Assembly: GCF_008017545.1 (NCBI RefSeq)
Contig: NZ_VRTZ01000002.1
Span: 903,443 to 951,364 of the forward strand
From: Homoserinibacter sp. GY 40078
GTDB taxonomy: Bacteria; Actinomycetota; Actinomycetes; Actinomycetales; Microbacteriaceae
DNA length: 47,922 nucleotides
Direction: 5' to 3'
In this document: in pieces, positions 27,790 to 46,202 of the stretch
How positions within the stretch are numbered: position 1 is the stretch's first letter
Layout of the letters: each line of letters starts with the position of its first letter
The notes under the pieces: model-generated
Told to the model about the DNA's origin: nothing
Seen by the model: the letters and a program-made list of their open reading frames with translations, nothing else
The model's database searches: none
Program-made: the position numbers and the translations under genes

Positions 27790-28457
27790 AACGCGGCGAT
27801 CCCCTTGCCGATCGAGGAAGCGCCGAGCACGAGCATCAACACGGACATGATGATCGCGTTGTGGTCGACGAGCCACACCCGCACGGAACCGAGCGCCGGG
27901 TGCAGGCGCTCCGCCGCCACGAGGTAGCCGACCACGGGCACGATCACGGTGGCGCCGGCGAGCACAGCGTAGATCGCCACGACGACCGCCGCCTCGCCGA
28001 CCGGGAAGCCACCCGACCCGATCTCCACGCCCGCGCTCGCCGAGAGCAGCAGGTTCTTCGGATTGAGCGCGGCGAGCACGAAACCGAGCCCCAAGCCCGC
28101 GCCGAAGCCCATCCCGTCGACAGCCCGCATCCATCCGGGCAGCGCGGCCTCCTGACCCGTCCGCGGCCTCCGCTGCCACTGGCGCACCGCGAGCCCGATG
28201 AGCACCATTCCCAGCACGATGCGCACGATCGCGAAAATCAGCGGCGGGTCGCTCGCACCGGTCTCGACGAGCGTCGAGACGAGCGCGAAGACACTGGTCA
28301 CGACCACGATGCCCGCGAGCCACCCCAGGAGGAACGCCGGCGCGGTCACGCGAGCGCGTGGCGAGAGCAGCATGAGGATCGCCGCGATGATCGGGATGGG
28401 ACTGATCGCGACACCCACCGCGAGGGGTAGCACTCCCCCGATGACACCCCACATCAC
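27786..28457 (-). CDS. GAP-family (Sap/sulfolipid-1-addressing-like) membrane protein
   Basis: A 223-residue protein with six hydrophobic segments. The N-terminus MMWGVIGGVLPLAVGVAISP and the internal LGLGFVLAALNPKNLLLSAS are characteristic of the GAP/SfLAP family, related to LysE-type exporters. Mycobacterial members help move glycolipids such as sulfolipid-1 or glycopeptidolipids; the cargo here is unknown. Its ATG overlaps the TGA of the SulP gene (ATGA), so the two are translated together. Confidence 0.87.
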   Translation of the reverse strand: MMWGVIGGVLPLAVGVAISPIPIIAAILMLLSPRARVTAPAFLLGWLAGIVVVTSVFALVSTLVETGASDPPLIFAIVRIVLGMVLIGLAVRQWQRRPRTGQEAALPGWMRAVDGMGFGAGLGLGFVLAALNPKNLLLSASAGVEIGSGGFPVGEAAVVVAIYAVLAGATVIVPVVGYLVAAERLHPALGSVRVWLVDHNAIIMSVLMLVLGASSIGKGIAAF

Positions 28458-30184
28458 GAGCCCGCCTTCCGCGCCCGACGGCCCGTGCCCGACGGTCGGC
28501 CGCCGAGCGCGTCGACCGCCGCACGATTGGTGGGGAAGATCGTCGCTTCTCCCCGCAGCCCGAGGGCATCGAGCCGCGCGAGCGTCGCCGGCCGCACCCG
28601 GCTGAACGACAACCGGGTACCTCGCTCCTCGAGCCAGACGCGGAGGCCCACCATCGCCTCGGCGGCGGTGACGTCGATGTCGGTCACGGCCTCCATGTCG
28701 AGCACGAGGTCGTGCACCGTCTCATCGGGCGCACGCACCGCGCGCCTCACCGCGCCGGCGAAGGTCTCGGCGTTGGCGAAGAACAGCGGAGCCGACATCC
28801 GCACCACGACGACGCCCGGGACCGTCGAGCGCCCCACGCCCGCCTCATCCACGAGCGAGCGGCGATCGGACCCGACGACGAGCACGTCGATCGGCGGATG
28901 AGCGGCGCGACGAGCCAGGTTCACGAGAGCGAGTACGAAGGCGACGAGCACGCCCGGGATCGCGCCGACGAGCAGCGTCACCACGAAACAGGTTCCCGCG
29001 ACGGCGAACTCGAACCGGTCGATACGCCACAGTCGGGCGAAGGAACGCGGCGCCAGAAGCGGCAGCACGGCGACGGCGACGACCGCGCCGATCGCCGGAG
29101 ACGGGATGTCGGCGAGCAGTGCGGTGCCGAACACGAGGAGCGCGATCGCTCCCGCGGCGACGACGAGCGACGGCAATTGGGTGCGCGAACCCGCCTGATC
29201 CATCGCCGCCGTCCGGCTCGTCGACGACCCCATCGCGAACGCGCCCTGCGCACCCGCGGCGATGTTCGCGAGGCCGAACGCGAGCAGATCGCGGTTCGGG
29301 TTCACGCGGTAGCGGTTCCGCTCGGCGTAGGCGCGGGAGAGCAGCAGGCCCTCGGCGAGCGTCACGAGCGTGATGGCGATCGCCGACGGGACGAGGGAGA
29401 CCCACGAGAGCACGTCGAGCATCGGCCAGGTGAATCGCGGGGGGCCCGCAGGGACGGGGCCGAGCACGGGCACCCCGCGCTCCGCGAGCCCCGCGACCGA
29501 GACGACGGCCGTCGCGGCCACGAGCACCACGAGCGCCCACGGGACGACCGGGAGGAACCGCCGCCCGAGGAGCATCACGAGGATCGAGGAGACGGCGACC
29601 GCGACCGACCACGGCTCGGCGCGCGGCAGTTCGAGGACGATCCGGCCCACCCGCTCGAAGAACTCGGCACCCGACGGGAGCGAGATCCCGAGCATCTTCG
29701 CGATCTGCCCGACCAGGATGTCGAGCGCCAGGCCGGCGACGAACCCCACGAGGATCGGGGCCGAGAGGAAGCTGGCCAGGAACCCGAGCCGGAACACCGC
29801 GAGCAGCACGAACAGCACGCCGACGATCACGGCCTGAGCGAGCGCGAGTGTCGCGTAATCGTCTCCGGCGATCGCGAGGCCGCCGACCGACGACGCGACG
29901 AGCGCCGCGATCGCGGCATCCGGGGAGGCGACGAGCTGGCGCGACGAGACGAACAGCACGTAGACGATCGTCGGCACGACGAGCGCGTAGAGGCCCGCGG
30001 TCGCGGGGAGCCCTGCGATCTGGGCATACCCGATGTTGAGGGGCACCGCGAGCGCGAGGAGCGTCACACCCGCGAGCAACTCGCGGCCTACCCCACGCAC
30101 CGTCAGGCCCGCCAACGGAGGTCGCAGCCGCGAGGGGGCGGGGCGACCCCCGTCCCGTCGGCGTGCAACGCCCGCGTCGCTCAC
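28454..30184 (-). CDS. SulP-family anion transporter with STAS domain
   Basis: A 576-residue transporter. About residues 25-410 are polytopic, with the family's early segment LAVPLNIGYAQIAGLPATAG and a later GSSTSRTAAMDQAGSRTQL. A C-terminal STAS domain (about residues 440-555; VVVVRMSAPLFFANAETF, LVLDMEAVTDIDVTAAEAM) regulates transport. SulP proteins move sulfate, bicarbonate or similar anions with Na+ or H+; the ion is not predictable here. The start is GTG 30182-30184, divergent from the SARP-type regulator by 87 bp. The downstream GAP-family gene overlaps its stop. Confidence 0.92.
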   Translation of the reverse strand: MSDAGVARRRDGGRPAPSRLRPPLAGLTVRGVGRELLAGVTLLALAVPLNIGYAQIAGLPATAGLYALVVPTIVYVLFVSSRQLVASPDAAIAALVASSVGGLAIAGDDYATLALAQAVIVGVLFVLLAVFRLGFLASFLSAPILVGFVAGLALDILVGQIAKMLGISLPSGAEFFERVGRIVLELPRAEPWSVAVAVSSILVMLLGRRFLPVVPWALVVLVAATAVVSVAGLAERGVPVLGPVPAGPPRFTWPMLDVLSWVSLVPSAIAITLVTLAEGLLLSRAYAERNRYRVNPNRDLLAFGLANIAAGAQGAFAMGSSTSRTAAMDQAGSRTQLPSLVVAAGAIALLVFGTALLADIPSPAIGAVVAVAVLPLLAPRSFARLWRIDRFEFAVAGTCFVVTLLVGAIPGVLVAFVLALVNLARRAAHPPIDVLVVGSDRRSLVDEAGVGRSTVPGVVVVRMSAPLFFANAETFAGAVRRAVRAPDETVHDLVLDMEAVTDIDVTAAEAMVGLRVWLEERGTRLSFSRVRPATLARLDALGLRGEATIFPTNRAAVDALGGRPSGTGRRARKAGS

Positions 30185-34854: not shown

Positions 34855-34875
34855 CGCTGTCATGCCGCTGTCATG
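34855..34875 (-). promoter_or_regulatory. Direct repeat with SARP-operator geometry upstream of the DrrAB operon
   Basis: CGCTGTCATG occurs at 34855-34864 and 34866-34875, an 11-bp period. Read on the minus strand this gives GACAGCG-N4-GACAGCG, with nine bases from the proximal copy to the presumed -10 (CATCCT, 34840-34845). SARP regulators are known to bind heptamers spaced by 4 bp just upstream of the -10. The neighbouring SARP-type protein is therefore the obvious candidate ligand. Confidence 0.55.
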
Positions 34876-34921
34876 TCCTGTCGGCCACACTCTTGGCGGA
34901 ACGCCTCCGCGGGTGCACGAT

Positions 34922-36022
34922 ATGAGCGTGACGGGCCTGCATCGGCTGCTGCTCCCCGAGAATCGCGCGAACGACGCCGACGAGGTCGTCGATCAGGTAG
35001 ACCTCGGATCGGGCGACCGCGCCGCCAAACGCAGCGGCTTCGCGATCATGCTGCTGCTGTCGTCGTTGATCGCCACCGCGGGCGTGCTCTCCGACTCGAC
35101 GGCGACCGTGATCGGCGCGATGATCATCGCCCCGCTTGCGACGCCCATCCTCGGTATCGCGATCGGGATCGTCACCGGTCGGGCGGGCCTCGCGGGCCGC
35201 TCAGTGCTGTGGGTGATCGGGGGCGCGGCCGTCGCCGTCACGATCGGTGCGCTCGTGTCGTTGACGGTGTCCGACCCCGGCCTGCTCACCACGAACTCGC
35301 AGGTGACGGGGCGAACCTCCCCCGGGCTCCTCGACCTGCTCGCCGCGTTCGCCACGGGAACTGCGGGCGCGTTCGCCATGGCGAGAAAGGACCTGAGCGC
35401 CGTCCTGCCGGGAGTCGCGATCTCCATCTCGCTCGTGCCGCCGCTCAGCGTCGTCGGTGTCGCTCTCGGCCACGGCGACACCGATGCCGCATTCGGTGCC
35501 TTCACCCTGTTCGGCTCGAACGTCGTCGCGCTGATCGTCGCCGGCAGCCTCGTGTTCACCCTCGCCGGCTACGCTCGGCGCTCGCCCGGCGGAGACGAAC
35601 GTCGCCGGCGACGCTCCTACCTGATCGTCGCGGCACTCACCGTCGGAATGACGCTCCCGCTCGCCGCCAACAGCCTCCTCACGATCATCGCCGAGAGATG
35701 GATCGCGGACGCGACCGCCATCAGCCGCGACTGGCTCGCCGTGAAGCCCGAGGCCCGGGTCACCGGCGTCGAGCTGCAAGGCACGGGGCTCGTCGTCGAG
35801 ATCCGTAGCCCCGACACCGAGCTACCCGATACCGGCGCACTGCGCGACGCGCTGCACGAGGAGATCCCGACGTTCATCCCCGTGTCGATCGAGTTGACGC
35901 TCGGCAGCAGTGTGCCGCTCGATCCGACCACGGCGGGTGTTCAGCCCACCGGGAGTCGCACCCTCGCGGTCGTGCCGGTGCGGCCGTCCGAGGCGAGACC
36001 CACCTCGCCTCCCATGCGCTGA
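34922..36022 (+). CDS. DUF389-family membrane protein
   Basis: A 366-residue protein from ATG 34922 (MSVTGLHRLLLPENR). The conserved DUF389 core is visible: SGFAIMLLLSSLIATAGVLS, then STATVIGAMIIAPLATPILG and GVAISISLVPPLSVVGVALG, within about six to seven membrane segments. A C-terminal soluble domain begins near residue 270. The function of this family is not established. The last 82 bp overlap the 3' end of the histidine kinase gene on the opposite strand, so the final Pro-rich residues are written in antisense to the kinase C-terminus. Confidence 0.88.
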   Translation: MSVTGLHRLLLPENRANDADEVVDQVDLGSGDRAAKRSGFAIMLLLSSLIATAGVLSDSTATVIGAMIIAPLATPILGIAIGIVTGRAGLAGRSVLWVIGGAAVAVTIGALVSLTVSDPGLLTTNSQVTGRTSPGLLDLLAAFATGTAGAFAMARKDLSAVLPGVAISISLVPPLSVVGVALGHGDTDAAFGAFTLFGSNVVALIVAGSLVFTLAGYARRSPGGDERRRRRSYLIVAALTVGMTLPLAANSLLTIIAERWIADATAISRDWLAVKPEARVTGVELQGTGLVVEIRSPDTELPDTGALRDALHEEIPTFIPVSIELTLGSSVPLDPTTAGVQPTGSRTLAVVPVRPSEARPTSPPMR

Positions 36023-37908
36023 ACCAGCTCACGCACGATCGGGAGCCCGAGGCCGGTACCGGGCACGAAGCCGTCCTGATCCGAGGTGACCCGGTAGAAG
36101 CGGTCGAACACCCGCTCGAGGTCCGCGCGCGGAATACCCCGGCCGGTGTCCTCGATCTCGATCACGGCATCGCCGTCCGACTCGGCTGTCCGGATGCGAA
36201 CCTCTCCCCCCGGCGACGTGAACTTGATGGCGTTCGAGATGAGGTTCGTGATCACCCGGCTGAGCCACAGGCGGTCGCCTCGGATGATGAGGGGCGGCTC
36301 GTCGGTGCCGGGCCCCAGGAGCGTCACCTCCGACTGCGTCGCCAAGGACTGGACTTCGCCGATGGTCTCCCGTACCACGGCGTTGAGATCTATATCGCTC
36401 GGAGAATACGTCGGCTGGGTGGTCATGCGAGACAGTGACAAGAGGTCCTCGACGAGTGCGGCCAGTCGTGTCGAGTTGCGCACGATGACCTCGAGGAGGT
36501 CACGCTCCTCATCGTCAAGATCCAGCTCCGCCAATTCCTCCGAGAATCCGAGGATGCTCGTCACGGGAGTGCGGAGCTCATGGCTCACCGACGAGATGAA
36601 CTCGTCCTTCTGATTGTTGAGGTCCGTGAGACGCGCGCTCGCCTCGCGTTCCTGGGCGAGCGCCGACCCGAGCGCGCGTTCCGCCTCGCGCTGCTCGGAC
36701 ACGTCGTTCGCCTGCAGCAGCAGCGAGTCACGGTCGCCCTCCACTCGGGCGATGAGCAGATCGATCTCCCGACCGTCGAGGTCGAGCTCGAGTCGTCGCT
36801 CCCTGCTTCCCGGTTCGGGTCGCATGTCGGCGAGATCACGCGAGCGGACCATCGGACCGTCACCGTCCTTCTCGATCCACGGCGCGAGCAGACGCTCTCC
36901 CGTGGCGTTCGACTCGAGGATCCGCCACGCGCCGTGACTCTCGCGCCTGACGACGAGGAAGCCGGCGTGAGCGCTCACGATGGTCCCGCGGAGGAGCTGC
37001 TCACGAGCGCTCATGCGGCCGATCAGCGCCGTCCGCTCATCCTGCGAGGCCGCCAGGAGGATCATCGACACGCCGAGGCTCAGAGTGAAGATCTGCACCA
37101 GCTCGACGAGCAGCCTCGGATCTTCTGCCCCCACGGCATAGAACGGACCACCGCCGCCGAAGCTCAGCACCGCGACGACGCCGCTCGTGACAAGCACCTC
37201 GATCATCACGATGCCGGTGCTGAACCGGAACGCGGCCCACGCAAGCGCCGGGAACGGCACGAAGGCAAGGGGCAACTGCTGCCCGGGGTAGAAGGCGATC
37301 AGCAGGGTCGCGATGAGCGCGACGACCTGAAGACCGAGCTCGAGGGGCCGCCGAGGCGCAAACGAACTGCGGGGTACGATCGCGAATCCGGCGATGAGGA
37401 GCACGGCGCTCGCGTGCGACGCGGACACTGACACCGCACCCTCGATGAAGACTCCTCCGTTGAGGTACACGACCCCACCCGCGATGAGGCCCGCCGTGAC
37501 CGCACCCGCGGCCGCCGAGATCACGAACCTGCCAATATCCGCCGCGCGGAAGTCCTGCTGGTCGCGACCGGCGCGCCCGAGGACCGTCGCGAACAGCCAT
37601 GCCTCCGCTGCGTTGGCGAGACCAAAGCCCGATGCCACCCACAGCTCCGTGCCGACGCTGAGGTTCGCAGCCCCCGTCACGAGGAAGACGAGCACAGCGA
37701 TCGTCACCGGTCGACCCCGCCACGAGATCGCCGCGAGAACCGAGAAACCTGCGGCGGGCCACCAGGGTGCTGTCGGAGCGCCCGGGAACCGCAGCAGGAC
37801 GAAGATCACACCGCACGCGAAGGCGGCCGCGAGGAGCAGCGCGATCAGGGTGACGTGACGCCACCTGCTCGCGTTGCGGATCTCGACACTGAGACTTTGC
37901 TTGTACAT
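35941..37908 (-). CDS. Membrane sensor histidine kinase with MASE1-like sensor
   Basis: A 655-residue kinase. Residues about 18-300 hold eight or so membrane helices resembling a MASE1 sensor (LLRFPGAPTAPWWPAAGFSV). A divergent PAS-like segment (about 315-410) follows, then a short coiled coil and the HisKA domain with the phosphorylated His443 in SSVSHELRTPVTSILG. The HATPase_c domain has N box NLISNAIKF, G1 box DTGRGIP and G2 box GTGLGLPI. It is divergent from a single-domain receiver gene 91 bp away, its probable partner. The ligand of MASE1 sensors is unknown. A good TTGACT/TACAGT promoter precedes it. Its 3' end overlaps the DUF389 gene by 82 bp. Confidence 0.92.
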   Translation of the reverse strand: MYKQSLSVEIRNASRWRHVTLIALLLAAAFACGVIFVLLRFPGAPTAPWWPAAGFSVLAAISWRGRPVTIAVLVFLVTGAANLSVGTELWVASGFGLANAAEAWLFATVLGRAGRDQQDFRAADIGRFVISAAAGAVTAGLIAGGVVYLNGGVFIEGAVSVSASHASAVLLIAGFAIVPRSSFAPRRPLELGLQVVALIATLLIAFYPGQQLPLAFVPFPALAWAAFRFSTGIVMIEVLVTSGVVAVLSFGGGGPFYAVGAEDPRLLVELVQIFTLSLGVSMILLAASQDERTALIGRMSAREQLLRGTIVSAHAGFLVVRRESHGAWRILESNATGERLLAPWIEKDGDGPMVRSRDLADMRPEPGSRERRLELDLDGREIDLLIARVEGDRDSLLLQANDVSEQREAERALGSALAQEREASARLTDLNNQKDEFISSVSHELRTPVTSILGFSEELAELDLDDEERDLLEVIVRNSTRLAALVEDLLSLSRMTTQPTYSPSDIDLNAVVRETIGEVQSLATQSEVTLLGPGTDEPPLIIRGDRLWLSRVITNLISNAIKFTSPGGEVRIRTAESDGDAVIEIEDTGRGIPRADLERVFDRFYRVTSDQDGFVPGTGLGLPIVRELVQRMGGEVGLASDGRTGTTARVRLPVG

Positions 37909-37925
37909 GCGCTATGCGCCCCCAA

Positions 37926-37960
37926 CTAGGGGACTGTACTCGACGTGAATCGGGAGTCAA
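37926..37960 (-). promoter_or_regulatory. Promoter of the histidine kinase gene with overlapping G/C-rich dyad
   Basis: On the minus strand TTGACT (37955-37960) and TACAGT (37933-37938) are 16 bp apart, a near-consensus vegetative promoter. The sequence just after it reads GTCCCCTAGTTGGGGG, a CCCC-N5-GGGG dyad covering the probable transcription start. GTCCCCTAG also occurs upstream of surface protein 2 (7416-7424). Confidence 0.6.
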
Positions 37961-37981
37961 TATGGAGAAGGGCTCCAAAAC

Positions 37982-37990
37982 GGGGGGGGG
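37982..37990. repeat. G9 homopolymer in the response-regulator leader
   Basis: Nine consecutive G lie ten bases before ATG 38000, next to the ribosome-binding region (ACGGGAA). Slippage here would change the spacing of the leader but not the reading frame. Confidence 0.8.
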
Positions 37991-37999
37991 TTACGGGAA

Positions 38000-38374
38000 A
38001 TGGCACGTGTCGTCATCGTCGACGACGATCAGGACCTGAGACGGCTGCTGGAACGGCGGCTCGTTCGCGAAGGCCACGACGTCGTCACTGCCGCAGACGG
38101 AATCGAAGGTCTCGCACTCATCCGGGAGTACCAGCCGGATCTGGTCGTGCTCGACTGGATGATGCCGCGCATGAACGGCATCGAGGTCACGCAACTGCTG
38201 CGGGACAATCCGGACAGCGGGGGCGAAGGGGTCCGCATTCTCATCCTCACGGCCCGTTCCCAGGAGAGCGACGTGGTGCGGGCGTTGTCCGCGGGGGCCG
38301 ACGACTACCTGGTGAAGCCGTTCAGCTCGACCGAGCTGGCCGCCCGGGTGTCGTCGCTGCTCGCCCGCCGGTGA
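38000..38374 (+). CDS. Single-domain response regulator (receiver only)
   Basis: A 124-residue CheY-like protein with no output domain. The acidic pocket is Asp8-Asp10 in VVIVDDDQDL, the phosphorylated residue is Asp52 in LVVLDWMMPRMNG, and the switch Thr and conserved Lys lie in ILILTARSQ and DDYLVKPFSS. The obvious donor is the divergent histidine kinase. Because it cannot bind DNA, it should act through protein contacts. The next two genes, five and two bases apart in the same operon, encode a HEAT-repeat protein and a membrane glycosyltransferase, which are the natural targets. Confidence 0.93.
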   Translation: MARVVIVDDDQDLRRLLERRLVREGHDVVTAADGIEGLALIREYQPDLVVLDWMMPRMNGIEVTQLLRDNPDSGGEGVRILILTARSQESDVVRALSAGADDYLVKPFSSTELAARVSSLLARR

Positions 38375-38378
38375 CGCC

Positions 38379-39233
38379 GTGACCGACATCTCATCCCTGA
38401 TACTTCAGGGCCTCGCCGCCGTGCTCGTGCTCTCGGTGCTCGGCCTCATCGCGACGGTCGTCGTCACCGCGGTCCGCGACCGGATCCGCACGGCGCGGCG
38501 CGAGCGTCTCTCGGCGGTGCTGCTCGACATCTGTGACGGGGAGGACCTCCCGGCACCGCGGAGCACACGCGACGCCGAGACGATCGCCGACCTCGCTGTC
38601 CGGCTTGCGACGAGTCTCAAGGGCAGCGACCGCGAGGCGCTGTCCGCCTGGCTGCAGCGCTCCGGGTTCCCGGGGCGCGCCCGCGCCTGGATGCGCCGCC
38701 GGAATCCCGCCTCGCGCCTGCGCGGCGTCGCACTCGTCACGACGATCAACGGGCCGCGGTCCGGGCGGGCGCTCGTCGAGATGCTCGCCGACCCGCATCG
38801 GCGGGTGCGGGCGGGAGCCGCACGGGGGCTCGGCATCACCGGCGCGGGCTCGGACATCCCGGCCCTGTTCTCCGCGGTCGCCGCGGGTCGGATTCCGGCA
38901 GGGCTCGCGGCGATGTCGGTGCTGCGCATCTTTCCCACGAGCGGTGGGCAGCTCGAATCCGGATTCTCGAGTCGAGACCCGAGCGTGCGCCGGATCGCGG
39001 CAGAGATCGCCGGGCGTCTGGAGCTCGCCGACGCGCGTCCCCGCCTCGAGAGGCTGCTCGGCGATTCCGATGCCACCGTCGTGTCGGCGGCGCTTGCCGC
39101 GCTCGTCCGCATCGACGACCCCGAGGCGCTGACGGCACTCCGCCGCGAACGGGATCGTCTGGCCGACGACCCGACGCGTCGTGAATTCGAGCGGACCATC
39201 AGTCGGCTCGAGGCACTCGAGCCGGTGGGGTGA
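38379..39233 (+). CDS. Membrane-anchored HEAT-repeat protein
   Basis: A 284-residue protein from GTG 38379, four bases after the receiver stop. One membrane helix (about residues 8-31, LQGLAAVLVLSVLGLIATVV) is followed by a basic stretch and then helical HEAT-type repeats to the end. Clear units are ALVEMLADPHRRVRAGAARG, DPSVRRIAAEIAGRLELADA and LLGDSDATVVSAALAALVRI. Such repeats are protein-binding scaffolds. Lying between a receiver and a GT2 synthase in one operon, it may pass the phosphorylation signal to the synthase; this is inference. No enzymatic motif was found. Confidence 0.87.
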   Translation: MTDISSLILQGLAAVLVLSVLGLIATVVVTAVRDRIRTARRERLSAVLLDICDGEDLPAPRSTRDAETIADLAVRLATSLKGSDREALSAWLQRSGFPGRARAWMRRRNPASRLRGVALVTTINGPRSGRALVEMLADPHRRVRAGAARGLGITGAGSDIPALFSAVAAGRIPAGLAAMSVLRIFPTSGGQLESGFSSRDPSVRRIAAEIAGRLELADARPRLERLLGDSDATVVSAALAALVRIDDPEALTALRRERDRLADDPTRREFERTISRLEALEPVG

Positions 39234-39234
39234 C

Positions 39235-40668
39235 ATGGACGCCACCACCATCGTGATCGTCGCGATCAGCGCACTCACCGTGTACTACGTCGTGTACCAC
39301 CTCGGATACCTCGTGATCATCGGGAGCGCGGCTCACCGCATGGCGGCGGACCTCGCATGGCCGGCCGAGATCGATCACGCCGAGATCTTCGCGAACCCGC
39401 TGACGCCCCGGGTGAGTGTGCTCGTGCCCGCCCACAACGAGGAAGCGGGGATCGTCGACTCCGTGGAGTCGCTGCGGAACCTGAGGTACCCGGATGTGCA
39501 GATCGTCGTCATCGACGACGGATCGACGGATGCGACCTTCCCCCTGCTCGAGCAGCGCTACGCGCTCCGCCCGGTGCAGCTCGACATGGTGTCGCCCGAG
39601 ATCCCCCAAGAGGGCGCGACGCGGGGCACGTACCGCAGCGACGACGGCTCCGTCATCGTGATCCGCAAGGAGAGCACCGGCCGCCGCGCCGATGCCGTCA
39701 ACGCGGGCCTGCGCATCTCCAGCGGCGAGCTCGTGTGCATGATCGACGCGGACTCGGTGCTCGCCCCCGACGCTCTGCTGCGGCTCGCCGCACCCTTCGT
39801 CGACGACCAACGGGTCATCGCGGCGGGCGGATCGGTGCTCCCCTCGAACGGCGTCACCATCGACGGGGGCCAGGTGACCCGCTTCGACCTCCCCCGCACC
39901 TGGATCGAACGCTTCCAGGTCGTCGAGTACCTGCGGGCCTTCCTCATCGGCCGCTCGGGGTGGGCGCAGGTCAACGGCCTCGTCGTCATCTCCGGAGCGT
40001 TCGGCCTCTACCGCCGGGATGCGATCCTGCGTATCGGGGGCCTCGCGACCACCTCCCTCGCCGAGGATGCCGACCTCCTCATGGCGGTGCACGTCGACGC
40101 GGTGAACCGGGGCATCCCCTACCGGGTGATCTTTTCGGCGGAACCGGTGTGCTGGACGGAGGTTCCGCGCCGCGTCCGCGTCCTCGGACGCCAGCGCACG
40201 CGCTGGGCTCATGGCCTCGGCGAGATCCTCGCGGACTACCGCAAGGTCATCGCGCGTCCCCGCTTCGGCGCGCTCGGCATGCTGTCGATGCCCTGGACGA
40301 TGGCGTTCGAATACCTCGCGCCCGTGGTGGCCGTGGTGGGCACGGTGCTGACGGTCGCGGCGCTCGCGCTCGGGCTCATCCCCATCTCGTTCGCGCTGCT
40401 CGTCGCGGCGGCCGGGCTCGGGCTCTCGACACTGGTCACGATCACGGCGCTGGCCGTCGAGGCGGCCTGGTTCCGACGCTATGGAGGCGCCCGGCGTCTG
40501 CTGGTCCTGCTCGCCGCGGCGTTTGCAGAGCCCTTCTTCTACCGTCCGCTCGTCTTCGCGTGGCAGCTGCGGGGCATGTGGCGGGCGCACCGGGGCGCAG
40601 TCGCGGAGTGGGGCGAGATGGAGCACACGGGTTCCGCACCCGCAACGCAGGGGGCCGTCCTCAGCTGA
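39235..40668 (+). CDS. Processive-type membrane GT2 glycosyltransferase (polysaccharide synthase-like)
   Basis: A 477-residue protein from ATG 39235, one base after the HEAT gene stop. An N-terminal membrane helix is followed by a GT2 catalytic domain: VSVLVPAHNEE, VIDDGSTDATF, the DxD motif in CMIDADSVL, the base-containing LAEDADLLM, and an RTRW acceptor motif in GRQRTRWAHG. Three to four C-terminal membrane helices follow (about residues 345-455). This is the layout of NodC, PgaC, hyaluronan and BcsA-like synthases that polymerise and export a glycan through the same protein. The sugar is unknown, and there is no PilZ domain, so control by c-di-GMP is not indicated. Its 3' end overlaps the MmyB-like gene by 8 bp. 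Confidence 0.92.
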   Translation: MDATTIVIVAISALTVYYVVYHLGYLVIIGSAAHRMAADLAWPAEIDHAEIFANPLTPRVSVLVPAHNEEAGIVDSVESLRNLRYPDVQIVVIDDGSTDATFPLLEQRYALRPVQLDMVSPEIPQEGATRGTYRSDDGSVIVIRKESTGRRADAVNAGLRISSGELVCMIDADSVLAPDALLRLAAPFVDDQRVIAAGGSVLPSNGVTIDGGQVTRFDLPRTWIERFQVVEYLRAFLIGRSGWAQVNGLVVISGAFGLYRRDAILRIGGLATTSLAEDADLLMAVHVDAVNRGIPYRVIFSAEPVCWTEVPRRVRVLGRQRTRWAHGLGEILADYRKVIARPRFGALGMLSMPWTMAFEYLAPVVAVVGTVLTVAALALGLIPISFALLVAAAGLGLSTLVTITALAVEAAWFRRYGGARRLLVLLAAAFAEPFFYRPLVFAWQLRGMWRAHRGAVAEWGEMEHTGSAPATQGAVLS

Positions 40669-41503
40669 GCGTCTGCGTCCCGATCACCGACAGCAGCTGC
40701 AGCTTCTCGTGGCTCTCGCTGCCCGGCACGGCGGTGTAGACGAGAAGCGAATGCGACTGCACCGGATCGAGCAGGCTCTGGCAGCTGAGTTCGAGCCGGC
40801 CGAGCTCCGGGTGAATGAAGTTCTTCACCTCATGGGGTCGCACCCCCACCTCGTGTGTCGCCCACGCGCGGCGGAAGATCTCGCTGCGCTGCTCGAGCAG
40901 TGCGGCGAGCTCCGCGGCACGCGAGTGGGGCCCCCGCAAGGTGGCGAGTTCGCGCAGACCGGATGCGAACATGCGCGTCAGGTGCGCGTGGTCCTCCGGG
41001 GCGTACCGCGCGCGGGTATCCGGGTCGGTGAACCAGCGGTAGATGATGCTGCGCGACGGCCCCTGGTACGAGGTCAGGTCGCCGTTCAGCGCGGCGCCGA
41101 GTTCTGTTTGCCGGAGGGTCTCGCCCAGCTCAGTGACGATCTCGGCCGGAGTGTCGCCGAGTCTGTCGAAGATCCGCAGCAGCCCGGGGCTCACGTGCTC
41201 GCCCGTCGCACCGTGCGCGGGCGGGGTGTGGCCGGCGAGCCGGAAGAGGTGGTCGCGCTCGATCAGCGAGAGATGCAGACCCTGTGCGAGCGAAGCGATC
41301 ATCTGCTCCGACGGTTGGGGGCCGCGCTCCTGCTCGATGCGCGAGTAGTAGTCGGTCGACATGTGCGAGAGGGCGGCGACCTCCTCCCGGCGCAGGCCAC
41401 TGGTGCGGCGACGCGATCCGTGCGGGAGGCCCACGTCCTCCGGCTGCAGCGCCTCCCGTCGGGTGCGCAGGAACTGCGCGAGCCCCGGTCGGTCGATCTC
41501 CAT
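40661..41503 (-). CDS. MmyB-like helix-turn-helix transcriptional regulator
   Basis: A 280-residue regulator. The N-terminal XRE-type helix-turn-helix (GLRREEVAALSHMSTDYYSRIEQ read as consecutive motifs RREEVAALSHMS and DYYSRIEQERG) is followed by the MmyB-like ligand-binding domain, a PAS-like fold. Recognisable there are IIYRWFTDPDTRARYAPED and LRGPHSRAAELAALLEQRSE. Members bind fatty acids or similar ligands and usually repress an adjacent divergent gene, here a short-chain dehydrogenase. The palindrome at 41577-41601 in the shared upstream region is a likely operator. Confidence 0.92.
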   Translation of the reverse strand: MEIDRPGLAQFLRTRREALQPEDVGLPHGSRRRTSGLRREEVAALSHMSTDYYSRIEQERGPQPSEQMIASLAQGLHLSLIERDHLFRLAGHTPPAHGATGEHVSPGLLRIFDRLGDTPAEIVTELGETLRQTELGAALNGDLTSYQGPSRSIIYRWFTDPDTRARYAPEDHAHLTRMFASGLRELATLRGPHSRAAELAALLEQRSEIFRRAWATHEVGVRPHEVKNFIHPELGRLELSCQSLLDPVQSHSLLVYTAVPGSESHEKLQLLSVIGTQTLS

Positions 41504-42646: not shown

Positions 42647-43174
42647 GTGGCGAGCGACAGCGGCATCCGGGTCCGGCCGATGGCGGCATCCGACTGGCCT
42701 CGGGTGCGGCGCATCTACGCCGAGGGGATCGCGGGCGGCCACGCGACGTTCGAGGCGCAGCCACCCGAGTGGGATGCGTTCGACGCCGGCAGGCTCCCCG
42801 CGCCCCGGCTCGTGGCCGTCGGCAACGACGACGAGGCTCTGGGGTGGGTCGCCGCCTCGCCCGTCTCAGCGCGAGCCGTGTACTGCGGGGTGGTCGAGCA
42901 CTCGATCTACATCGCCGACGAGGCTCGCGGGCGCGGCATCGGAGCGATCCTGCTCGGGGCGTTCCTGGCGGAGACGGACGCTGCAGGGATCTGGACCGTG
43001 CAGTCGTCGATCTTCCCCGAGAACCTCGCGAGCCTGCGCCTCCACGCACGCCACGGCTTCCGCACGGTCGGCACCCGCGAGCGGATCGCGCTGATGAGCT
43101 ACGGCCCGATGGCGGGTGTCTGGCGCGACACCATCCTCATCGAGCGGCGCGCACCGTCCGGCGGCGAGTCCTGA
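42647..43174 (+). CDS. GNAT acetyltransferase, phosphinothricin/methionine-sulfoximine type
   Basis: A 175-residue GNAT enzyme. IYAEGIAGGHATFEAQPPEW (about residues 25-44) is the hallmark of the Pat/Bar/MddA subgroup, and the acetyl-CoA loop is EARGRGIGAILLGAF (about residues 91-105). ENLASLRLHARHGF is the conserved C-terminal helix. Members N-acetylate phosphinothricin, methionine sulfoximine or other amino-acid analogues; the natural substrate is often unknown. It starts 20 bp after the SDR gene, and its last 38 bp overlap the convergent surface-protein gene. Confidence 0.88.
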   Translation: MASDSGIRVRPMAASDWPRVRRIYAEGIAGGHATFEAQPPEWDAFDAGRLPAPRLVAVGNDDEALGWVAASPVSARAVYCGVVEHSIYIADEARGRGIGAILLGAFLAETDAAGIWTVQSSIFPENLASLRLHARHGFRTVGTRERIALMSYGPMAGVWRDTILIERRAPSGGES

Positions 43175-46100
43175 CGAGCAGCACGCCGAGCAGCAGCACG
43201 GCGAGAGCCAGAGCCGCGGTCGGGATCGCGTTGTCGACGCCCGTGGCACCCAACTCGTCCTCCCCCGCATCCGCGGCGGCGGGCGCAGCGGAGATCGTCA
43301 GCGCGATCGTGGCGCGATCGACGCCGCCTTCGTCCACGAGTACCACGTGGTGCAGGCCTGCGGGGGTGCCCGCCGGGATCGCGAACGTCCGCGAGAAGGC
43401 GCCCGTGGAGTCGGCCGTGACCGTGCCGAGCACGACCGGATCCGAATGAAGCACCACCGTGTAGACGGCGCCCGGCTCGAGGCCGGTCCCCGTCACGAGC
43501 ACCGTCTTGCCGGCCACCGCGCTCGAGAGCGACAGCGTGAGCGTCAGCACGGTCGCCGTGGGCACGGACTCGCCGCTGCCGGTCTCCGAGTCGTAGCCAT
43601 CCAGCTGGGGCGTCACGACGACGGTGATCGTCGCGCCGCTCAGCTCCGACGTCAGATCGAGGCTCGCGCCCGTGGCGCCCTCGATGGGCTCGCCGTCGGC
43701 GTACCACTGGTAGACGTATGCGGTCGGGGCGGGCTCGGCGAAGGAGGTGATCGTGGCGGTGAGTGTCTGCCCGACCTGGGCAACACCGGCGACCTCGACC
43801 TCGACGCCGGCGGTGTAGGCACCCTTCTCGACCGTGGAAGTCGGGTCCGAGGTGGCCGCGCCGCTCGCCGCGTCGTATCCGGCGAGGACCGGGCTGACCG
43901 TGACCGTGATCGCCGTGCCGAGCTGCTCCACCGACGGAGTGAACTCGGAGGAGGTCGCACCATCGATGGCGATGCCGTCGGAGTACCACTGCACCGTGTA
44001 GCCGGTCGGTGTGGGCGACACGCCTCCCGCAACGCTCGCGGTGAGCGTCTGCGCGACGGCGGCGGTTCCCTCGATGCTCACGGCGAGGTCGCCCGTGAAG
44101 CTGCCCGCACCGATCGTGGTCGTCGTGCTGATGCGCGAGGTACCGGTCGTGCCGTCGTAGGCCTCTCGCACCGGTGTGACGGCGACCGAGATCGTGCTCC
44201 CCAGGTGCGTCGCGGTGAGCTCGAGGCTCGAGCCGGTTGCGCCGTCGATCGGCTCGTCGCCGGTGAACCACTGGTAGCTGTACGAGGTCGCCGACGGCGT
44301 CGATCCGCTGGTCACCGCGACGCTCAGGGTCTCTCCCACGGCTCGCGTGCCGTCGATCCGGAGCTCGGGCTTCGCAGAGAAGACGCCCTTCGCGACCTCG
44401 GCCGACGAGACCTCGCCGACCGCATCGCTCGATGTGTAGCCAGCACGCACCGGGGTGACCTCGACGGTCACGACGCCGCCGAGCATCCCCGGGGTGAGGG
44501 CGAGGCTCGTGCTCGTTGCGCCCGTGATCGGCTCGTCGTCCAGCAACCACCGGTACGAGTAGCTCGTGGGGGTCGGTGAGGCGGCCGTCGAGACGACGGC
44601 GGTGAGTGTTCCGCCGACCCGGGCGTTCCCCGTGAGGGTCACGACCGGTGCTCGCGTGAACGCCGCCGTCGCAACCGGACCCACACCAGTCGACTCGACG
44701 GTCGTCGTCTCGTAGCCGGTGGCCTTCCCCGTGACTTTCACGGTGATCGTGGAACCGACGAGTGCTGCCGGGACGGTGAAGGTCGACGAGGTGGCGTTCG
44801 CGATCGGCTCCCCGCCTGCGTACCACGCGTAGCTCAGGGTCGCGGCCGAGTCCCAGGTGCCGGGAACCGCGGTGAGCGTCTGGTCAACCGTGGGCGTGCC
44901 CGTGATCGTCGGAGTGGGGGTCGCCGAGAACTTGTTCGCCTTCACCTCGGAGGTCGGCGAGGATGTGCCCGCTCCGGTCGCGGAGACATACCCGTCGAGC
45001 ACGGGAGTCGCGGTCACCGTGATCTTCTTGCCGATGGCCGACGACGGGACGGTGAAGGTGGACGAGGTCGCCCCGGTCGCGGCGACCTCGCCGACATACC
45101 ACTGGTACGTGTAGGAGGTCGGGGTGGGCTCGGCTTCCTCGTCGATCGTGGCAGTCAGGACCGTGCCGGGTCGGATCACCTCGGCGTCGACGGTGACGAC
45201 CGCAGCGGACTCGAACGCGCGCGGGATTGTCGTCTCCGTGAGAGTCGAGCCGCCCGTGACCACGAGCAGGTGGCGGGAATCGCCCGGATCGACCGAGATT
45301 CCCGTAGCGAACGACACGGGTACCGGCTCGACACCGGCTGACTCGTCGTTCTCGGTATCGAACACTTCGATCTGGCCGCTGCTGCTGTTGCCGATGACGT
45401 AGGCGAGCGAACCGTCGGCCGCGAACGCGATCCTGCTCGTCGAAATGGTGATAGTCATCGACGTATCGGATGTCAGGGCGTTGGTCGTCGTGTCGAGCAC
45501 ACGCAGAGTCGTGCTGGCGGCGACGTACACCTTGTTCTGCGTCGGACTTGCAGCAAGTCTCCGTGCGGTGGTCAACGAGATCAGCGTCTTCGTGTAGGTG
45601 GACGTGGAGATCACGTACACGCCGACGCCATCAGCGGTCGCATACGCGTAGGCGCCGTCGCGACTGAAGGCGAGAGACGTCACCGCGGCGCCGATGTCGA
45701 TGTGCTTCACCACCGTGTTGTTGGCGGTGCTGATGACCGAGATCGAACCCGCGTTGTATTTGTAGTTGCCGACCCAGGCCTGCGTGCCTGCCGGGTTGAG
45801 TTCAACCGTGTACGGCACCTCCTCGCCACGCGAGGTGTCGTTGACCGTCGTCACCACGGCAGCCGTTGCCGTGTTGATCACCGTCGTCCATGGGCGGCTA
45901 CCGTTGTAGTGCGCCACATAGAGACGACTGCCGTCGGCCGAGATAGCTCCCTCTTGGGGCGACGCATTCACCGATACGGAGTTCATGACCTCCTTGGTGG
46001 AGACGTCGACGAAGAGGACCTTGTTCGCTGAGCTATCGATCAGATACGCGGTGTCACCGTCGGGGCTGAACACCACGTCCCTGAGCGAGGTCGTCCCACT

Positions 46101-46202
46101 GAAGTAGAAGCTGGCGGCGTCCGCCGCACGAGGCGTCACGGCAACCCCGGCTGCGGCGAGGACGACGACGAAGAGGGCTGCGACAGCGCGGCGCAGATGC
46201 AT
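43137..46202 (-). CDS. Surface protein with YVTN-type propeller, six Ig-like repeats and sorting-type C-terminus
   Basis: A 1021-residue secreted protein. Start ATG 46200-46202 has GGAGG nine bases upstream. Residues 1-29 are a signal peptide. Residues about 30-335 form a YVTN-like beta-propeller (SPDGDTAYLIDSS, SADGSRLYVAHYN, SRDGAYAYATADG). About residues 335-880 are six repeats of about 90 residues, each with a core like PTPTSYTYQWYVGEVAATGA and TVTATPVLDGY, resembling bacterial Ig-like repeats. A last beta domain precedes a sorting-type tail: LGATG, a hydrophobic helix (ALALAVLLLGVLLV) and RTRRRTVRAAR. LGATG is close to the LAxTG motif of class E sortases, so wall attachment is likely. 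No ligand is known; adhesion is the usual role. Confidence 0.88.
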   Translation of the reverse strand: MHLRRAVAALFVVVLAAAGVAVTPRAADAASFYFSGTTSLRDVVFSPDGDTAYLIDSSANKVLFVDVSTKEVMNSVSVNASPQEGAISADGSRLYVAHYNGSRPWTTVINTATAAVVTTVNDTSRGEEVPYTVELNPAGTQAWVGNYKYNAGSISVISTANNTVVKHIDIGAAVTSLAFSRDGAYAYATADGVGVYVISTSTYTKTLISLTTARRLAASPTQNKVYVAASTTLRVLDTTTNALTSDTSMTITISTSRIAFAADGSLAYVIGNSSSGQIEVFDTENDESAGVEPVPVSFATGISVDPGDSRHLLVVTGGSTLTETTIPRAFESAAVVTVDAEVIRPGTVLTATIDEEAEPTPTSYTYQWYVGEVAATGATSSTFTVPSSAIGKKITVTATPVLDGYVSATGAGTSSPTSEVKANKFSATPTPTITGTPTVDQTLTAVPGTWDSAATLSYAWYAGGEPIANATSSTFTVPAALVGSTITVKVTGKATGYETTTVESTGVGPVATAAFTRAPVVTLTGNARVGGTLTAVVSTAASPTPTSYSYRWLLDDEPITGATSTSLALTPGMLGGVVTVEVTPVRAGYTSSDAVGEVSSAEVAKGVFSAKPELRIDGTRAVGETLSVAVTSGSTPSATSYSYQWFTGDEPIDGATGSSLELTATHLGSTISVAVTPVREAYDGTTGTSRISTTTTIGAGSFTGDLAVSIEGTAAVAQTLTASVAGGVSPTPTGYTVQWYSDGIAIDGATSSEFTPSVEQLGTAITVTVSPVLAGYDAASGAATSDPTSTVEKGAYTAGVEVEVAGVAQVGQTLTATITSFAEPAPTAYVYQWYADGEPIEGATGASLDLTSELSGATITVVVTPQLDGYDSETGSGESVPTATVLTLTLSLSSAVAGKTVLVTGTGLEPGAVYTVVLHSDPVVLGTVTADSTGAFSRTFAIPAGTPAGLHHVVLVDEGGVDRATIALTISAAPAAADAGEDELGATGVDNAIPTAALALAVLLLGVLLVRTRRRTVRAAR

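Follow-up and report, generated by a model that had tools for sequence, protein, structure and literature searches.

We analyzed a window of 47,922 nucleotides from Homoserinibacter sp. GY 40078 (Microbacteriaceae, Actinomycetota; contig NZ_VRTZ01000002.1, positions 903,443 to 951,364) and focused on a four-gene locus in which the gene for a membrane histidine kinase is divergent from an operon encoding a stand-alone receiver (REC), a HEAT-repeat protein and a membrane glycosyltransferase of family 2 (GT2). The locus probably belongs to a module, old and widespread, in which signals control the production of a synthase-dependent polysaccharide and where a kinase or phosphorelay would act through the receiver on a complex of the HEAT protein and the GT2, placing polymer synthesis under post-translational control. 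The parts, their order and conservation, the absence of recognized output domains and the existence of HEAT–GT2 fusions are established by the sequence, and no published description of a REC–HEAT–GT2 module was found in the portions of the open-licence literature available to us.

Conservation of the gene order

A single scan of genome contigs with the window GT2 found 55 loci spanning Actinomycetota, Pseudomonadota, Acidobacteriota, Bacillota, Bacteroidota, Balneolota, Rhodothermota and Chlamydiota, and beyond these phyla gave two weak GT2 matches (L060 and L061). As loci were found in several other phyla, an actinobacteria-only module was rejected. A first-pass annotation of the window had proposed a survey of Actinomycetota for this gene order with a nearby MASE1 kinase, and had named a lack of conservation outside close relatives as one of the outcomes that would refute the proposal. 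This outcome did not occur, as the order is kept across phyla and in 12/12 further positive genomes of the window's family; the survey as proposed was too narrow in scope, as other phyla and other sensors are involved. With a GT2 profile, 51 of 296 Actinomycetota genomes were positive (E up to 1e-60), and at E up to 1e-100, with seeds included, matches were found in 12/299 genomes of the phylum of L028 (Erythrobacter), 23/249 of that of L048 (Ureibacillus), 33/149 of that of L025 (Terriglobia) and 50/198 of that of L020 (labelled Bacteroidetes). Within the window's own family the module is rare, being present in 13 of 299 genomes and 6 of 85 genera with the window's genome counted, and none of eight same-genus genomes matched the window HEAT protein. 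The distribution is thus patchy at close range but broad across phyla. In a tree of 50 GT2s the grouping largely agrees with the phyla, with 8 changes against a minimum of 7, which suggests that the GT2 family is old; the 11 Actinomycetota-labelled rows lie on one side of a branch with support 99. The tree has its blemishes, as Balneolota require 3 changes and Bacteroidota 2, the branches are long, and L005, from the window's order and in no group there, is placed beside the chlamydial L049, which counts against a clean picture.

The pairing of HEAT and GT2 is close to universal. Five phylum surveys yielded 179 GT2 matches, and we took 125 loci from them by score, ignoring their neighbors (best scores first, 30 of 56 for Actinomycetota, 12 of 12 for the phylum of L028, 23 of 23 for L048, 30 of 33 for L025 and 30 of 55 for L020); the set includes the window's own locus and the four seed genomes, and three of the loci (L095, L105 and L115) have less than 600 bp upstream. 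Of the other 122 loci, 120 carry a HEAT gene on the same strand within 720 bp upstream of the GT2, the two that fail this rule being L171, a HEAT–GT2 fusion with HEAT further up, and L176, where the GT2 frames are broken. The two genes lie no more than 100 bp apart in 86 of the 122 loci and more than 300 bp apart in 3. Searches from the HEAT side gave the same association: a model built on the 55 scan loci matched in 50 of them and adjoined the GT2 in 49, the L060 match lying far off, and of the 30 best HEAT-profile matches in 296 Actinomycetota genomes, 29 adjoin a GT2 and the 30th lies at a contig end. A receiver is present in the short flank of 22 of these 30, and 7 of the 30, all from one family, have a more distant GT2 (146–166 bits) and no receiver visible in the short flank. 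These divergent HEAT–GT2 pairs (L071, L074, L075, L077, L081, L083 and L084) all come from family f38, and in the two wide views, L132 and L133, the 2.5 kb upstream of HEAT contain no receiver.

In three genomes HEAT and GT2 are encoded by a single open reading frame (ORF): G293 (L079/L094), where an internal start before the GT2 is possible, G711 (L169) and G816 (L171). These natural fusions support a HEAT–GT2 contact, which the first-pass annotation had proposed to examine by structure modelling. Further fusion suspects (L019, L040, L041 and L051) were rejected as long overlapping frames, and L060, where HEAT and REC matches occur in one ORF far from a weak GT2 (30 bits), was set aside. In two genomes of the L048 phylum with a fused HEAT–GT2, the receiver is encoded by the upstream gene together with either GGDEF plus DivIVA or ODP plus GGDEF (L239:3427-5637, L240:10167-12191). 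Among the 55 scan loci, the HEAT match is missing from L053, L054 and L056, and L055 starts inside the GT2; the former three represent a Bacteroidota GT2 branch with deacetylase-type neighbors, identified by Pfam for L053 and as homologues in L054 and L056, and with no receiver match. An N-terminal hydrophobic segment, one per protein, was found within the first 90 residues of 40 of 41 HEAT family members, and profile matches to alphaRep and PP2A scaffold chains were obtained for the family. Mirror-tree correlations over 38 loci were 0.94 for HEAT–GT2, 0.92 for HEAT–REC and 0.87 for GT2–REC, with partial values of 0.71 for HEAT–GT2, 0.62 for REC–HEAT and 0.04 for REC–GT2; we did not use them as evidence for a HEAT-centered chain, as the same pattern would appear if HEAT were merely the best clock of divergence.

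Receiver, kinase and glycosyltransferase

To count receivers we left out 13 of 94 wide loci, either for a short flank (L014, L018, L022, L036, L123 and L138), because HEAT was not found (L053–L056 and L124) or because HEAT was not adjacent by our rule (L240, a fusion, and L253). Of the 81 loci counted, all with 2.5 kb or more before HEAT, 76 have a receiver in this upstream stretch, a density of 0.548 per kb in comparison with 0.010 per kb in the outer flanks past 5 kb (3 matches over 301 kb) and thus an approximately 55-fold enrichment, although the counts are not independent because many loci come from sphingomonad relatives. Where 150 bp or more are visible past HEAT (116 loci), the receiver is adjacent and on the same strand in 70. 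We scanned 106 receivers with Pfam, comprising the window's and 105 of 121 candidates taken as the nearest to HEAT on either strand; of the 16 candidates left out, one was the window's receiver again (L063) and 15 came from short loci. All 106 match Response_reg and none matches a recognized DNA-binding output family, and residues corresponding to the window's phospho-acceptor Asp52 and Lys106 are kept in 101 and 106 of them, respectively. Other matches were to Hpt in five receivers and to ODP/Lactamase_B, DivIVA and OKR_DC_1_N singly. Matches named after regulators or enzymes (VpsR in 3, GlnR_1st in 1, PDE8A_N in 3) fell on the receiver itself where their position was seen, and none was counted as a DNA-binding domain; we take the VpsR and GlnR_1st models to be receiver-like. 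This composition is that of a protein-contact receiver, but not proof of one. The earlier claim that control involves no transcription step gains support from the lack of DNA-binding outputs, tempered by a Myxococcus single-domain receiver reported to act on transcription (PMC9040617).

Sensor domains vary among the modules and include MASE1, CHASE3-PAS, GAF, PAS and 7TM-DISM. Homologues of the window kinase take the same divergent position relative to the receiver in Leucobacter (L007 and L010), Salinibacterium (L008, L009 and L011) and G045; among the four of them covered by the MASE1 scan, the domain scored above the cut-off in L009, L010 and G045 (L126) and below it in L007. All 12 further positive genomes of the window's family have the ordered REC–HEAT–GT2 genes with an adjoining kinase, which is upstream and divergent in four, with a nearly full-length match to the window kinase, and downstream and convergent in eight, with a match in the kinase core only; two of the 12 loci, L270 and L272, lie on contigs of the same length as those of L009 and L011. 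In 14 Pseudomonadota loci, a small gene follows the GT2 directly on the opposite strand and was identified as Hpt by Pfam in the one scanned. This gene sits in loci of the type with a second receiver and a kinase, and there the lone receiver would plausibly be the end of a phosphorelay.

Synthase-type, processive GT2s are defined by the motifs D, DxD, ED and QxxRW. The window GT2 carries the full set, and D95, D171/D173, E277-D278 and Q320xxR323W324 are invariant in the 45-row and 23-row family alignments; three or four hydrophobic segments were found in 38 of 45 family members. The nearest curated family is PgaC/IcaA (TIGR03937), and the profile matches among solved structures include chondroitin, cellulose and hyaluronan synthases. 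Membership in PgaC/IcaA was rejected, the score being 118.7 bits (132.7 for the L028 GT2) where 422.3 are needed, as were memberships in BcsA (TIGR03030, 63.3 bits against 699.1, and no C-terminal PilZ in the GT2) and NodC (TIGR04242, 57.8 against 550). The first pass had assigned a NodC/BcsA layout; the nearest curated family is neither of these, and the score is far below every NCBIfam cut-off shown. With the best match so far below its cut-off, the identity of the polymer is not assignable from the family.

A neighbor cluster of TPR/YaiO type was found in 36 of the 53 loci from diderms and in none of the 41 from monoderms, four of the latter (L125, L128, L134 and L137) having no GT2 called and no neighbors scanned. 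The assignment was confirmed in all four cluster members scanned, as YaiO plus TPR in L028 and L025 and as TPR in L026 and L243; in L028, the TPR is accompanied by a YaiO barrel with 78.5 bits to TIGR04390 (cut-off 32). No TPR/YaiO-type gene was found in the four Balneolota, one Rhodothermota and one Chlamydiota loci. The contrast between diderms and monoderms is the one that export across an outer membrane would produce. In L237 the GT2 is fused to a sulfatase-superfamily domain (PF00884) in one 1144-residue ORF (L237:8752-12186), and in L248 and L253 such a domain is encoded close by, suggesting that the polymer is modified in some lineages. Proteins of 1035–1055 residues near the GT2 in three loci (L048:9251-12418, L246:2480-5587 and L053:6529-9690) had no Pfam match at E 0.001, the L053 protein showing a weak deacetylase-type NCBIfam match.

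Proposed mechanism and competing explanations

We propose a standing complex of HEAT and GT2 in the membrane, suggested by their near-universal adjacency and natural fusions, in which the GT2 would polymerize sugar at the cytoplasmic side and pass the chain outward, consistent with its synthase motifs and with the TPR/YaiO-type partner in many diderms. Phosphorylation of Asp52 in the lone receiver would come from the kinase or, in other lineages, from a longer phosphorelay, and the receiver may then dock on the cytoplasmic HEAT solenoid and alter GT2 activity with no transcription step. By analogy with EpsW, activation is the likelier sign of this control. The occurrence of HEAT–GT2 fusions and the lack of receiver–HEAT fusions beside a module GT2 fit a standing complex with a diffusible receiver. 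We hold this reading with moderate confidence, raised very slightly by the CheY7–Cpc7 precedent described below, which also made two of the alternatives marginally less probable. More tentatively, the module might stand for a general class of polysaccharide secretion systems, found in several phyla and older than the divergence between its monoderm and diderm versions, where an Asp-phosphorylated receiver docking on a GT2-bound membrane HEAT solenoid fills the role of cyclic-di-GMP at cellulose and alginate synthases.

Several observations weigh against this reading. By a single-sequence search, with some of the loci short, only 54 of 90 have a kinase within 6 kb, a receiver is missing from 5 of the 81 counted loci (L122, L132, L133, L139 and L238), and the phospho-acceptor Asp is absent from 5 of the 106 receivers. 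Our fusion check of the loci found no receiver–HEAT fusion beside a module GT2, and in many Pseudomonadota loci a TPR/YaiO-type gene separates the receiver from HEAT; this gene is in turn absent from 17 of the 53 diderm loci. The top HEAT score is below 35 bits in 6 of 122 loci, the GT2 profile was itself built from 23 sequences of which 21 are HEAT-linked, and a few receivers match GGDEF (7 of 106), GGDEF_2 (1) or MshEN (1). Part of this would be expected if HEAT and GT2 were a constitutive synthase complex, with the kinase and receiver merely co-located or co-expressed and serving another target such as a regulator, indirect transcription or a phosphate sink: the missing receivers, the 36 of 90 loci with no kinase within 6 kb and the lack of receiver–HEAT fusions all agree with it, as does the effect on transcription reported for the Myxococcus receiver (PMC9040617). 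We nevertheless consider it rather unlikely given the enrichment of receivers upstream of HEAT, their adjacent same-strand position in 70 of 116 loci, the 0 of 106 DNA-binding outputs and a kinase that adjoins the module in 12/12 family members despite its changing position.

The matches to GGDEF, GGDEF_2 and MshEN indicate that cyclic-di-GMP may take part in some lineages, and raise the question of whether the GT2 is controlled by this ligand like BcsA and Alg8–Alg44, the receiver being an upstream branch that sets its local level. PgaCD is also controlled by cyclic-di-GMP, L246 has a separate REC-GGDEF gene, and the window's genome has one GGDEF match. On the other hand, at least 98 of the 106 receivers match neither GGDEF nor GGDEF_2, and neither GGDEF nor PilZ was matched in the window's four proteins by Pfam. 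The absence of PilZ, noted at first pass for these proteins, extends to the whole genome of the window, where no match was found in comparison with 5 of 14 control genomes, and we regard cyclic-di-GMP control as improbable. The synthase motifs, invariant including QxxRW, the PgaC/IcaA family as the best NCBIfam match, the profile matches to cellulose and hyaluronan synthases and the TPR/YaiO-type gene of most diderm loci (36 of 53) all argue against a GT2 that makes a glycolipid or modifies a wall polymer, with HEAT as a substrate-handling factor. This last explanation could draw on the PF00884 domain that is part of the GT2 protein in L237 and has its gene close by in L248 and L253, and on the fact that Pfam GT2 names do not tell processive from single-addition enzymes, but seems very improbable.

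Locus features and relation to known systems

All four ORFs were recovered where the first-pass annotation had placed them, and its description of a divergent MASE1 kinase and gaps of 1–4 bp was confirmed by ORF coordinates and Pfam (Table 1). REC and HEAT are separated by 4 bp, HEAT and GT2 by 1 bp, and the kinase and REC starts by 91 bp. The kinase scored 34.9 bits for MASE1, above the gathering cut-off of 29.8, 68.3 for HisKA and 102.8 for HATPase_c. REC scored 109 bits for Response_reg, its only match at E 0.001 and thus a single-domain receiver; the sole other match was a sub-threshold one to a receiver-like family. At the sequence level the two proteins have the features of a two-component pair, HisKA and HATPase_c in the kinase and the Asp and Lys in the receiver. 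The HEAT protein scored 60.3 bits for HEAT_2 (gathering score 27.7) and its single hydrophobic segment covers residues 14–32, while the GT2 scored 85.5 bits for Glycos_transf_2 and 65.0 for Glyco_tranf_2_3.

Table 1. Coordinates of the four genes and the divergent region in the window
Feature	Position	Strand	Details
Membrane histidine kinase (HK), 655 residues	35941-37908	-	MASE1 sensor, HisKA and HATPase_c (Pfam)
Divergent intergenic region, 91 bp	37909-37999		Between HK and REC starts; presumably holds promoters
Stand-alone receiver (REC), 124 residues	38000-38374	+	Asp52, Thr84, Lys106; no output domain
HEAT-repeat protein, 284 residues	38379-39233	+	GTG start; one N-terminal transmembrane-like segment
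Membrane GT2, 477 residues	39235-40668	+	Synthase motifs; three hydrophobic segments found

In the divergent region, a sigma-70-like sequence at 37960-37933 (-) is a consensus match only, and the RNA fold downstream of the GT2 stop gave no terminator signal. The operon ends with the GT2, as a gene for an MmyB-like regulator (40661-41503, -) follows on the opposite strand; the two genes converge with an 8-bp overlap (40661-40668). On the other side, a DUF389 ORF (34862-36022, +) converges on the kinase gene and overlaps it by 82 bp (35941-36022). Further away, a predicted surface protein of 1021 residues (43137-46202, -) has repeated segments, a C-terminal hydrophobic anchor followed by arginines, and weak beta-propeller and Ig-like matches, all below curated cut-offs. 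The AT skew is strong (0.356) at 28001-30000 in comparison with the rest of the window.

For synthase-dependent polysaccharides, control after translation has been described mainly via cyclic-di-GMP (PMC8461298, PMC12802240), with BcsA and PilZ, Alg8 and Alg44, and Pel and PelD as examples (PMC8461298). Those systems resemble the proposed module in having a membrane polysaccharide synthase that is switched post-translationally, and HEAT would occupy the place of Alg44, the noncatalytic membrane partner of the GT2 Alg8 (PMC8461298). They differ in their ligand, which is cyclic-di-GMP, whereas in the window's genome no PilZ was matched, and the candidate ligand of the module is the phosphorylated receiver. 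If our reading is true, a phosphorylated receiver acting via a HEAT partner would be a second solution to such control; it would give a function to many lone receivers and HEAT proteins, and provide a four-gene unit for studying the environmental signals that set matrix production in soil and marine bacteria. In comparison with the nearest family, the poly-beta-1,6-GlcNAc synthase PgaC/IcaA, the module carries HEAT and a receiver in place of a deacetylase, and deacetylase-type neighbors accompany the related Bacteroidota branch (L053, L054 and L056). The YaiO outer-membrane family (TIGR04390) occurs in the L028 module, and its neighbor cluster is absent from the window and from the other monoderm loci.

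The first-pass annotation knew of no described system with this composition, and none was found in the available open-licence literature for the module as a whole; separate precedents exist for the two halves of the proposed mechanism, both from Myxococcus xanthus, and the HEAT-repeat papers otherwise located in the available literature concern other subjects. The phosphorylated single-domain receiver EpsW stimulates the initiating phosphoglycosyl transferase EpsZ (PMC12802240), and the window REC is likewise a single-domain receiver. EpsZ, however, is a large monotopic phosphoglycosyl transferase that starts a Wzx/Wzy pathway, with a chemosensory kinase, whereas the partners in the window are HEAT and GT2; the terms GT2 and glycosyltransferase do not occur in that text (PMC12802240). 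CheY7, another single-domain response regulator, is reported to interact with the HEAT-repeat protein Cpc7 (PMC11514114; PMC9040617), a pairing that the window presents as gene adjacency. CheY7 and Cpc7 belong to a chemosensory system coupling aggregation and sporulation, and no glycosyltransferase is named in the accessible parts of the two papers (PMC11514114; PMC9040617). If the proposed control holds, the module would unite the EpsW–EpsZ and CheY7–Cpc7 precedents on a synthase-type GT2.

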